From positions 1 through 35,001 of the forward strand of contig VGTG01000050.1 of NCBI GenBank assembly GCA_016874795.1: a stretch of 35,001 bases of DNA. Reading direction: 5' to 3'. Under the pieces are notes generated by a model. It was not told the origin of the DNA and made no database searches. It worked only from the letters and a program-made list of their open reading frames with translations. This document shows, piece by piece, positions 2,605 through 5,830 of the stretch. The stretch is from Deltaproteobacteria bacterium. Lineage in GTDB: Bacteria; Desulfobacterota; Binatia; UBA12015. Each line of letters begins with the position of its first letter. Within the stretch, counting starts at the first letter, position 1. A program made the position numbers and the translations under genes.

Positions 2605-2973
2605 GTGACCGAGACGCGCACGAACCACTGGAAGCTCGGCCTCTTCGTCGTCGTCTCGATCCTGGTCGTCGTCGTCGCGACGTTCTGGCTCGGCGCGCAG
2701 CGCTTCGAGCGCGACTCGTTCCAGGCGGTGACCTACTTCGACGAGTCCGTGCAGGGTCTCGAGGTCGGCTCACCGGTCAAGTGGCGCGGCGTCACGATCG
2801 GAACCGTCGCCGAGCTCACCGTCGCCCCCGATTCCGGTGAATCCATGAGTCGACACGCGAAGCGCCGGCCGCTCGAGCTTTCGAGCTCGAGCGTGCCGGC
2901 GCGCGATGCCTTCAGGAGCACACGGAGGCCGTCGGGTTGGTCACGCGGAACAGGAAGGGACCGGTGTTCTTGA
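2605..2973 (+). pseudogene. Truncated MCE/MlaD-type lipid transport protein, 5' fragment
   Basis: From GTG 2605 the product has a short cytoplasmic N-terminus, one membrane helix (LGLFVVVSILVVVVATFWLG, residues 11-30) and the start of an MCE domain (VTYFDESVQGLEVGSPVKWRGVTIGTV followed by AELTVAPD). Homology-like sequence stops near residue 76 (base about 2833). After this come about 45 unrelated residues to a stop at 2971-2973, running into the 3' end of the opposite-strand gene. MCE proteins of the MlaD/PqiB/YebT kind are usually about 150 to over 800 residues, so most of the domain is missing. The family forms periplasmic lipid-shuttling rings fed by an ABC transporter, and no such partner is nearby. 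The gene is divergent from the phosphodiesterase with 105 bases between starts. Most likely it is a deletion remnant; an assembly join is the alternative. Confidence 0.7.
2862..2902. terminator. Long GC hairpin between convergent gene ends
   Basis: Bases 2862-2879 (GCGCCGGCCGCTCGAGCT) pair perfectly with 2884-2902 around a TTCG loop (2880-2883), apart from one bulged T at 2894. This makes an 18-bp stem. It sits 9 bases beyond the stop (2912) of the minus-strand propeller gene and inside the nonsense tail of the truncated MCE frame. There is no T-run on either side, so it would be a U-less, possibly bidirectional terminator or mRNA 3'-end stabiliser. The structure is certain; its function is inferred from position. 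Confidence 0.55.
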
Positions 2974-4638
2974 CGGTCCCTCCAGCCGCACCGCCGAAGC
3001 CGACGCAGTAGGTACCGCCGCCGTTCACGGTGAACCGCACGTGCGCCTCGCTCCCCGGGGTGGGCGGCACGATCAGGAGCGCGACGTCGCTCTTCCCGAG
3101 GATCTTCACCTTGAGCTTCGTCACGCCCGAAGACGACTTCGAGAGGCTGACGCTGCTCACCGGACCGTTCGAGCCGGTCTTGTCGGCGTAGACCGCGCCC
3201 GTCGACCCGGCTCGCTTCCAGCTCGCCGCGGGCAGGAAGAACGACTGCGCCGAGTCCTGCGCGCCTTCGGCCGTCACGACGAGCGTCGCGCCGTTCACGA
3301 GGAGGGTGTCGACGTCGACCACCGCGCTCGAGCCCGACTCGCTCGCGTCGATCGTGACCTTCCGCCGCGACGAGTCGCTCGGCACCGGATTCTGGATCGC
3401 GATCGACTTCCCGCGGATCGCCTGCGGCGGAAGCCCGTCGGTCTCGGAGACGAACACGCCGTTCGCGCCCGTTCCCGCGTAGAGCCGGCCCGGCTCGACG
3501 GCGAGCTCGAGGACGAAGCCGTTGTAGAGGCCCGCGTTCGAAGCGGCCCACGAGGCGCCGCCGTTCGTGCTGACGAAGACGCCGTGGCCGCCCGTCGCCG
3601 CGTACACCGTCGTCGGAGATTCGGGATCGACCGCGAGCGATCGGACGTCGTAGCTCGTGAGGCCGACGTTCGCTTCCGCCCACGAAGCGCCGGCGTTGGT
3701 CGACTTGTAGATGCCCGCGCCCTCGAGGCTCGCGTACACGATCGACGAAGAAGCCGGATCGACGGCGATCGCCTGCACCGCTCTACCGGTCGCCGCCGGC
3801 AAACCGACGTTCATCGGCGTCCAGAGGTCGCCGCCGTTCGTCGATTTGAAGACGCCGGAGAACGGGCCGTTCGCCGGATCGGTGCCCGCCCAGAGCGTGC
3901 TCGACGAGGATGGGTCCATCACGAGGACGAGCGGGAAGCCCGACATCCCGTTCTGAAGGAACGTCCAGCTCGCACCACCCGTCGTGCTGCGCGAAACGGA
4001 CGGGAAGCCGCCCGCGTAGACCGTCTGCGGCGCATCGGGGCTCACGACGATCGAGCTGATCAGGATCGGGAGGTTCGTCGTGCCGAGCGAGGTCCAGCTC
4101 GCTCCGCCATTCACCGTCTTGTGGATGCCCGTCGTCTGCGCGCCGACGTAGACGGTTCCCGCCGCCGTCGGATCGGTCGCGATCGAGTAGAACTGGCCGA
4201 GCTCGTCGACGAACGCGGTCGGCGCCCACGACTCGCCGCCGTCCTCGCTCCGGTAGACGCCGTTGTATCCCGTCGCCGCGTAGACCGTGCCCGCCGCGGA
4301 AGGAGCCGTCGCGATCGCGCCGACGTCGTTGTTGCTCAGACCGTCGTTCGAGACGTCCCAGTCGTCGGCGCCGTTCGTCGTCGTCCAGAGGCCGATCCCG
4401 TCCTGCGCGCCGGCGAGGAGGGTCGACGGATCCGAGGCCGCGATCGAGATGGAGCGGACGATCTCTCCGATCGGCGTGGGGCTCCAGCTCTCGCCGCCGT
4501 TCGTCGTCTTGTACACGCCGGGATCCGGATCGATGCCGCTGACGTAGCCCGCGACGTAGACGACGTTCGGATCCTCGGGGTCGATCTCGATGTCCACGAC
4601 GGAGAACGGCTCCGGCTCGGTGGCGGAGAGAACGACGT
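2912..4638 (-). pseudogene. C-terminal part of secreted BNR-like propeller protein
   Basis: This stretch continues the propeller protein that begins at 5594, after an inserted element. It has no start signal or signal peptide of its own; the first ATG in frame (4597) lies inside a repeat. The repeats follow the pattern 'IAxDPxxxxxVYAGTxxxGVxKSTNGGASW', as in VPS10/sialidase/Ycf48-like propellers. They run to about base 3430, followed by a roughly 170-residue C-terminal region with a DVDTLLVNGATLVV segment and a VTKLKVKILGKSDVALL segment. It ends TNPTASVCS with a stop at 2912. That C-terminal region resembles ones I associate with Binatota-type secreted proteins. Without a start this half is probably not made. 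The spacing of the repeat across the insertion is preserved, which supports one ancestral gene. Confidence 0.75.
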
Positions 4639-4824
4639 CTAGCCTGCATTTCTCACCAGATCACGTCGCGAGGCGGTCGAGAGTGCCGAAGATTCGCGAG
4701 CCTCGGACCGGAGGGCGACGCAGGCGTACTTGAACAGTACGTCGAGGAGCCCGGAGGGAGAAGCTCGCGAAGATTCGGTGCTATCGGCCGCCGCAGTAGG
4801 GATCTGGTGAGAAATGCAGGCTAG
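4639..4824. mobile_element. 186-bp foldback MITE-like element inserted in propeller gene
   Basis: Perfect 24-bp terminal inverted repeats lie at 4639-4662 and 4801-4824 (outer end CTAGCCTGCATTTCTCACC). The outermost CTAG is itself a palindrome, so it could be a 4-bp target duplication flanking 20-bp repeats beginning CCTGC. Inside are a second inverted pair, 4686-4701 and 4763-4778 (16 of 16 bases, CCGAAGATTCGCGAGC), and a central 6-bp hairpin at 4725-4730/4736-4741. The spacers between these arms are nearly equal on both sides (21-23 bases), so the whole element folds back on itself. It has no convincing coding sequence. The size, ends and foldback form fit a non-autonomous MITE moved by a DDE transposase encoded elsewhere. 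A CTAG duplication would suit IS5- or IS1380-like groups, but I cannot assign a family. Confidence 0.8.
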
Positions 4825-5594
4825 GTCATGCCGCCGTCGAACGTCTCGTACACGCCGTAATCCTGGACGCCCGCGTAGAGGATGCTCGGGTTCGTCGGAT
4901 GAAAGACGAGCGCGTCGACGTGATCGCTCGGAAGTCCGGTCCCGGCGTACGTCCAGGTCGCGCCGCCGTCGGTCGACTTGGAGACCGCACCGAAGATGGT
5001 GCCGATGTAGACGACGTTCGGATTCGACGGATGGACCGCGACGCTCGAGTACGTGCTGCCCGACAGAATCTGCGTCCACGTCGTGCCGCCGTTCGTCGAC
5101 TTGTAGACGCGGTTGCCGACCGCGTAGAGCGTGCTCGGGCTCGACGGGCTGACCGCGACGTCGTCGAGGTTGCCGAGCGACTGGAGGGACCAGCTCGCGC
5201 CGCCGTTCGTCGAGCGGTAGATGCCGCCGTTCACCCCCGAGCTCACGGCCGCGTACACGCGCGACGGTGTCGCCGGATCGAGGGCGATCGCCCCCACGTG
5301 GTAGACGGACGGATCGACGCCGGCGTTGATCGCGCTCCAGCTCGCTCCGCCGTCGGTCGACTTGAAGAAGCCGCCGCCGTTCGTGCCGGCGTACATCGTC
5401 GCGGCATTCGTCGGGTCGATCGCGACGGCCATTCCGTGGCCGCCGGTCGGACCGTGGCTCGCCCACGGCGCGGCATCCACGTGCGCGGAGAAGAGGAGGA
5501 TGACCATCGCCAGCGCAGCGAGCGCGCCGACTGCTCTCCTCGTCGCCGCGAAAGCGACCGTTCCGTTCCCGTCGTGGGTCCTCGTCGTGCGCAT
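4821..5594 (-). pseudogene. N-terminal part of secreted BNR-like propeller protein
   Basis: The start is ATG 5594, chosen for the AAGGAG ribosome site (plus-strand CTCCTT, 5601-5606) six bases upstream. A signal peptide of about 41 residues (AVGALAALAMVILLFSAHVDA) leads into PWASHGPTGGHG and then propeller repeats. These carry the units GGGFFKSTDGGASW, GGIYRSTNGGASW, NRVYKSTNGGTTW, GAVSKSTDGGATW and YGVYETFDGGMT, each about 45-50 residues apart. The frame ends at a TAG formed by the CTAG edge of the inserted element (stop 4821-4823), leaving 257 residues. Such proteins are exported beta-propellers; their ligand is unknown. A half-propeller without its C-terminal region is unlikely to fold fully. 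The product was probably about 830 residues before insertion. Confidence 0.8.
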
Positions 5595-5830
5595 GGTCTT
5601 CTCCTTCGTCCGTCGTTCGAAGACGATGCGTTTGCCAGAACGATGTGATGGCTGGCGCACGACAAAACGCAGCGATCGCGGGGGCAGACGCGCGACACGT
5701 CCTGCGCGCATACCCCCGCGAGATATCCGCGCGAGCGAAGAGAGCCCTCGTCGCGGGCGGACGGCGACTGCGGAGGCGCCCGTTCAACGGTATCGCCTCG
5801 TTGCTGCGCAACGGCGGGTGAAGCGACCTT

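Follow-up and report, generated by a model that had tools for sequence, protein, structure and literature searches.

A gene-free, CTAG-flanked hairpin element at a propeller gene, likely moved by an IS1380-family transposase

Introduction

The window, the whole stretch of 35,001 nucleotides analysed here, contains at positions 4639-4824 a palindromic segment that stands at the end of an open reading frame for a propeller protein. What is this segment, which enzyme could have brought it there, and does its folded interior carry anything of its own? A sequence-only reading had described it as a foldback MITE without a known family. We conclude that the segment holds a non-autonomous (MITE-like) transposon which very probably borrows an IS1380-family transposase, its mobilisation being inferred from comparison of sequences. 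Neither the IS1380 identity, nor the spread across phyla, nor the placement at stop codons and between convergent genes, nor the covarying core of the hairpin was foreseen by that first reading, and the surprise lies in the conserved core with its exchangeable ends.

Boundaries, fold and copies of the element

The whole of 4639-4824 had been taken as the element. Because the outer CTAG on either side is a target duplication, the element proper is shorter: 178 bp at 4643-4820, gene-free inside, without an assigned strand and delimited by the genome copies described below. The left CTAG (4639-4642, no strand assigned) is recognised as one copy of the duplication from the full-length alignments, all 62 of which show it, and from non-palindromic duplications in relatives; the right CTAG (4821-4824, no strand assigned) contains on its minus strand the TAG that terminates the 296-aa propeller reading frame. 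Between them, the terminal inverted repeats occupy 4643-4662 (plus strand, an IS1380-type end beginning with CCTGCATTTCTCACC) and 4801-4820 (minus strand). Counted with its CTAG, the left repeat has 21 bases identical to the left end of an insertion sequence (IS) in locus L261.

The perfect 24-bp inverted ends described before were found again: the outer arms 4639-4662 and 4801-4824, each a 20-bp terminal repeat plus CTAG, are complementary at 24 of 24 bases. A symmetric inner pair is present as well, not as the 16-bp pair that had been claimed but as two longer and less perfect arms of 33 nt each (4672-4704 and 4760-4792, no strand assigned), which are 79% complementary and rest on covariation in addition. 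On the plus strand, the conserved core ACGCAG-GCGTACT-loop-AGTACGT-CGAGGA (4718-4748, with a G-U pair 4724/4742) encloses the central 6-bp hairpin that had also been noticed, CGTACT-TGAAC-AGTACG with a 5-nt loop at 4725-4741 (plus strand); the sequence of this apical stem differs among relatives through paired changes. One long imperfect hairpin describes the whole better than the three-tier cruciform that had been envisaged. The reading as a foldback MITE is supported, the element being short and non-coding, bounded by terminal inverted repeats and a target duplication, and present in high copy number.

That many copies might exist in the genome had been suspected, and about 120 were indeed found by counts of the ends and of an interior pattern. 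A count of the exact 15-bp end CCTGCATTTCTCACC in the 6.27-Mb assembly gave 239 places, 119 and 120 on the two strands, and its reversed control none in the same assembly, so the inverted ends are not due to chance. A pattern of 30 bases taken from the right interior, three mismatches at most being allowed, gave 120 matches in the genome (control: 0), and the 100 places listed for it all match without mismatch. BLAST in the loci examined returned 76 rows, at least two of which are second, partial views of copies already counted. Full-length alignments make up 62 of these rows, and all 62 have CTAG on both sides, which had been proposed as a check on the family. Identity to the window copy is complete in 45 of the 62; the remaining 17 carry one to five substitutions, two of them also a one-base indel. 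Three further copies (L012, L080, L087) have one altered edge. The copy number is only approximate, since contigs often break inside a copy (for example L013, L016, L017 and L025).

Another repeat family, about 165 bp long and ending in TGCACCGCCGTCGAGATAGCGTCA, was noted at L086:9133-9300 and also at flanks in L005, L008 and L032. On its right side it borders directly on the CTAG that the element uses, and genomes G002 and G006 contain many matches to it.

Target duplication and the propeller gene

Judged by the flanks, insertion of the family duplicates 4 bp of the target, which is CTAG in this GC-rich genome and also TTAA, TTAG or CTAA elsewhere, so far as can be read from these flanks with CTAG as this genome's version of a YTAR target. 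The CTAG duplication proposed earlier is borne out by relatives: we regard it as a true target duplication because non-palindromic identical flanks (TTAG, TTTA, CTAA) occur. In genome G296, the 4-bp flanks agree on the two sides in 8 of 10 element copies (four with TTAA, two with CTAG, one with TTAG and one with TTTA), and in G167 the flanks are CTAG/CTAG in 8 of 9 copies, one of ten regions being without an end pair. Many copies in the named genomes are flanked unequally, for instance by TTAG/CTAG or CTAG/CTGG. The TTAG/CTAG flanks had prompted the idea of an IS630-like duplication of TA only, which was dropped given the CTAA/CTAA, TTAG/TTAG and TTTA/TTTA pairs. A frame test on 18 well-typed copies does not decide the duplication, because 13 have genes on different strands and the 5 same-strand cases show mixed phases.

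In the window, the element interrupts the reading of a Sortilin-Vps10/BNR propeller gene on the minus strand. The 5' part (4821-5711, minus strand, 296 aa) closes with the residues GGMT and the TAG at 4821-4823 read on the minus strand; it is the right edge of the element that supplies this stop, as had been noticed earlier. The 3' part (2912-4636, minus strand, 574 open codons) lies in another frame, and a 390-aa reading frame ending at 4639, in a different frame, reads through the element. When a single CTAG replaces the element, an in-frame TAG results and the downstream part is out of frame, the codon model requiring 2 mod 3 bases. The earlier remark that one CTAG fails to restore the frame stands, but the almost clean landing that had been described with it is not shown: as the frame is not restored, a clean insertion into an intact gene is insufficient and a small change, earlier or later, is needed. 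No propeller orthologue was found among 13 relatives, in which the long matches belong to the neighbouring gene, and with no orthologue present no empty site for the window copy was obtained from them. For one other, intergenic copy a comparison with genus relatives was made for an empty site, with an alignment that was too loose.

Placement at gene ends

CTAG is scarce in the window's genome by nearly five-fold, with 63 sites seen versus 298 expected in 400 kb chosen away from the listed element copies. By extrapolation, about 990 free sites stand against about 120 occupied ones. Roughly 11% would carry the element, which puts a gene-less element on about a tenth of one genome's estimated target sites.

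With a codon-usage model and thresholds of our own choice, 135 distinct element flanks were typed as 75 incoming genes, 28 outgoing genes, 30 unclear and 2 ambiguous cases. Among the 75 incoming genes, 41 use the TAG of the element edge as stop and 34 stop before the edge, and by this typing none of the 75 enters the element in a different frame. The two orientations are balanced, with 31 incoming genes on the left and 38 on the right. The same typing of 61 occupied and 56 free sites, 7 free sites near region ends having been dropped, found an edge stop on one or both sides in 33 of the occupied versus 16 of the free sites (p = 0.008), convergent gene pairs in 21 versus 2 (p = 1.6e-5) and genes diverging away on both sides in 2 versus 11 (p = 0.007). 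Four copies have a gene ending at each of the two element edges; because CTAG is palindromic and contains TAG on both strands, the duplication can serve both sides. Copies lie preferentially at gene ends, with the CTAG duplication able to hand a stop codon to each side and to rebuild stop codons on which the element lands. Insertion just after stop codons is known from the YPAL repeats.

On balance, we take the likeliest cause of this placement to be the occurrence of CTAG combined with the survival of insertions, without any targeting of stop codons. CTAG is scarce, the 16 free sites with an edge stop are stops already without an element, and edge stops are less frequent in other genomes (2 of 5 incoming genes in G167, 3 of 9 in G296). 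The excess of occupied over free sites, both for stops and for convergent pairs, speaks against this explanation, although survival alone could produce that excess as well.

An IS1380-family partner

IS1380 was first set aside, as it is missing, but for a fragment, from the window's genome and also from most class relatives. It was reconsidered because an end-like sequence adjoined an IS1380 gene in L062, and then confirmed by ends of the L233 type. The exact 14-bp end CCYGCATTTCTCAC lies at the end of an IS in four of the 30 loci fetched (L233, L234, L235, L261). L233 has CCCGCATTTCTCAC on both sides, with CTAG/CTAG flanks, around a 485-aa protein identified as an IS1380 family transposase (NCBIfam NF033539, 405.6 bits, cut-off 180). 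L261, whose protein is likewise an IS1380 family transposase (NCBIfam, 385.1 bits, cut-off 180), has the window's own end variant CCTGCATTTCTCAC on one side and CTAG/CTAG flanks. A matching end on one side and CTAA/CTAA flanks were seen in L235; in L234 the right end alone was located, with the exact 14-bp end, and L236 has a related end and CTAG/CTAG flanks. Five of the six ISs with both ends located have identical 4-bp flanks, those of L232 being unequal. An IS with the element's own ends had been named earlier as evidence that would establish the family; the IS1380-family ISs provide it, L233 with a match on both sides. Apart from short weak extensions, the IS copies compared share with the elements only the terminal 20-odd bases, and to the extent of this comparison the element interior is not left-over DNA of these copies.

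Partner and element were also found together. Genome G113 has the L233 IS and at least 11 copies of the structured interior (11 scored), and its copy L368 shares 22 bases, CTAGCCCGCATTTCTCACCACC, with the right end of that IS. The one-contig genome G167 has an intact IS1380, L332, with CTAG/CTAG flanks and ends resembling that genome's own element ends, CCCGCATTATTCATGA. PF13701 was matched in 29 of 50 named carriers (27 over the cut-off) versus 3 of 14 control genomes (1 over the cut-off), in 3 of the 11 class relatives having related sequence, and in 14 of the 35 core-bearing phylum genomes tested out of 51 (7 over the cut-off). In the window's genome no intact IS1380 was found; the lone trace is a 276-bp fragment with one stop, at G000:C153:2559-2834 (L039), beside unrelated genes. 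Eight IS-sized intervals between ends in named loci contained no recognised transposase reading frame, and eight single ends followed inward had no transposase adjoining the end. A reading frame about 1 kb inward of the single end in L151 is presumably IS110-like.

Mobility by an IS1380-type transposase is likely, movement itself being inferred. The transposase would have acted on the element in trans, and recently, and the partner may now be lost from the genome, diverged, or missing in the assembly. A widespread anonymous MITE would in this way gain a transposase family and a defined target. According to the part of PMC3281130 available to us, IS1247, a listed IS1380 member, makes a 5-bp duplication, which we counted against the IS1380 reading, together with the lack of an intact IS1380 in the window's genome, the limited share of PF13701 matches among class relatives and core-bearing phylum genomes, the unequal flanks of L232 and of many element copies, and the want of a clean empty site. 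The element has the same terminal sequence and 4-bp duplication as IS1380 ISs (NF033539 / PF13701) but no transposase gene, and an interior unrelated to that of the IS copies compared.

Could another YTAR-targeting transposase move the element, for instance one of the IS5 group, to which we assume ISPsy2 to belong, the likeness to IS1380 ends being accidental? MITEPsy1 of Pseudomonas syringae lends this some support: as described in the available part of PMC3189936, it is likewise short and gene-less, is derived from ISPsy2 and inserts at CTAG or YTAA with a 4-nt duplication. It differs in its length of 100 nt and in its ends GGAAGGTCTGAAAAAGCC, unrelated to those of the element, and IS5-type ends were not met when the MITEPsy1 ends given in that part of the paper were compared by eye with the element ends. 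As the exact element ends were found around IS1380 genes, we regard such an accident as hardly credible. Very unlikely, too, is that the element spreads like a REP palindrome with the help of a RAYT-type (HUH tyrosine) transposase, even if palindromic shape and gene-end placement would suit it. GTAG REPs (RAYT/TIRYT elements), in what is accessible of PMC3733652, are like the element palindromes between convergent and unidirectional genes that often supply TAG stops to flanking ORFs. They differ as single hairpins of 20-40 bp with a GTAG tag and an HUH transposase, and no 4-bp duplication is claimed in that text. The 4-bp target duplications and the IS partners bounded by terminal inverted repeats fit a DDE enzyme rather than a RAYT, and the GTAG tag is absent: the CTAG flanks are a duplication, not a one-sided tag beside a 20-40 bp palindrome.

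Other known systems share single traits with the putative IS1380-moved element. ERIC, YPAL/RU-2 and Correia/NEMIS, as far as the available portions of PMC2229807 and PMC10969869 describe them, are likewise hairpin-forming repeats of 100-200 bp, intergenic and transcribed, and have no ends in common with the element; ERIC and Correia differ by TA at their termini, YPAL by duplications of 3-26 bp. For piggyBac, the accessible part of PMC10813416 gives a palindromic 4-bp target, TTAA, and frequent CCC-type ends, with IS1380 used as outgroup. It differs in being eukaryotic and autonomous, and kinship runs through IS1380 alone.

A conserved hairpin between different ends

All 23 elements of the 184-bp class align to the window element in one orientation, two copies from the window's genome and the non-fitting L168 and L208 having been excluded beforehand. 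After removal of near-duplicates, 19 sequences and the window copy formed alignment A1 (20 sequences), on which RNAalifold gave 62 pairs, 42 of them changing on both sides. In this structure, which was derived from the same sequences, 91.4% of cells pair versus 72.7% in shuffles and 231 cells show compensatory change versus 83.6, and the pairing signal collapses when partners are slid. The mean energy z-score of 77 foldable interiors was -3.5; 40 of them had more symmetric pairs than nearly all shuffles, and 37, among them nearly all of the 248-bp class, had no such excess. The interior model R1 matched in 51 of 297 phylum genomes, the window's genome included. In the class to which G102 belongs it matched in 20 of 274 genomes, with G102, G113 and G141 already known as carriers. 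From 36 of 37 loci, 40 matches could be aligned; in this alignment, which is fitted to R1, both sides change in 39 of 42 pairs.

The terminal repeats around the core differ: IS1380-type ends of several subtypes, CAGGCTGTTSAAAAA-like ends and GC-rich ends were found, and in some core loci no clear terminal repeat. A central stem met the criteria of our script, which favour this motif, in 41 of 60 sequences, and 19 gave none. Among these 41 the stem sequence varies and its flanks stay: CAG precedes the stem in 28 and CGAG follows it in 27, and 32 have a G-U pair at the stem base and 39 a preceding A.

Whether one strand is the folded one was less clear. The plus-strand fold is better in 20 of 20 A1 sequences, which are related to each other. 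G-U cells outnumber A-C cells 119:16 overall, in part because the plus strand was folded, and 31:16 on pairs common to both foldings. As inferred events, 26 G-U stand against 12 A-C on the common pairs (p = 0.03) and 59 against 25 on the union. The test is not decisive because the common-pair cells come to 17 G-U versus 11 A-C once the ends and the conserved G-U pair are removed.

From these alignments, the interior is a conserved hairpin whose fold is kept and whose effect is unproven; the pattern in the core looks like selection on a folded molecule. The hairpin perhaps works within read-through transcripts, at the RNA level, or else as DNA folded in one strand. Tentatively, and short of conviction, we propose an undescribed mobile structured RNA (or one-strand DNA hairpin): the core, about 120-145 nt long with an apical GCAGG-stem-TCGAG, would be under selection for its fold and would travel between the ends of transposons of several types (IS1380 subtypes, CAGGCTGTTSAAAAA-type, GC-rich). 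Different transposases would then spread one non-coding cargo across phyla and, in the genome examined in most detail, to gene 3' ends. Long inverted repeats can also convert one arm from the other, which likewise gives paired changes. The covariation might then stem from template-switch correction between the palindrome arms, without selection on a folded molecule and with a functionless interior, and the weakness of the strand test leaves room for this possibility, doubtful but a serious one. It is opposed by the excess of G-U over A-C events, by the better plus-strand fold and by the unpaired A and the stem-base G-U pair, which persist between different ends and which correction should have erased. 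In either case, a conserved covarying core common to different transposon ends is now exposed. Should it function as RNA, several transposase families would be distributing a non-coding cargo, whose effect on the transcripts it ends is directly testable.

No match to Rfam 15 was obtained up to E 10 in window positions 4500-5000, and none at gathering score in 15 core loci. The element-end sequence, in four spellings, was not found in the literature text searched, and for core strings the titles among the matches listed point to primer-like coincidences. Core hairpins between CAGGCTGTTSAAAAA-type ends were seen in L317, L320, L323, L325, L329 and L330; L307:382-998 has three core-model matches within about 620 bp, in both orientations.

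Spread across genomes and size classes

Related sequence was found in 12 of 98 genomes searched, the window's genome included, three of them (G014, G076, G094) with a match to the core only. A scan of named genomes for CTAGCCYGCATTTCTCACC found at least 106 stretches, and those listed belong to Gammaproteobacteria, Acidobacteria, Verrucomicrobia, Planctomycetes, Gemmatimonadetes, Nitrospira, Alphaproteobacteria and others, although some of the single ends may have matched by chance. Paired ends lie between 60 and about 400 bp apart and cluster near 176 and 240 bp. Loci L041-L059 and L104-L211 yielded 87 end pairs, two of which are copies from the window's genome (G000).

L104 and L105 are contigs of a viral collection from one metagenome with element ends near the contig ends, and they may be stretches of bacterial genome between copies rather than viruses. 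A class of 244-251 bp (L122, L125, L148, L159, L160, L173, L180, L186, L187 and others), among those listed mainly from Gammaproteobacteria, has the same ends and a different, non-symmetric fold with its own GCGTAGC-loop-GCTACG-like hairpin. In L112, L127, L131, L135, L152, L176, L202 and L207 there are very short forms, measuring 42-60 bp with the 4-bp flanks counted in; they consist of two IS1380-type ends with next to nothing between.
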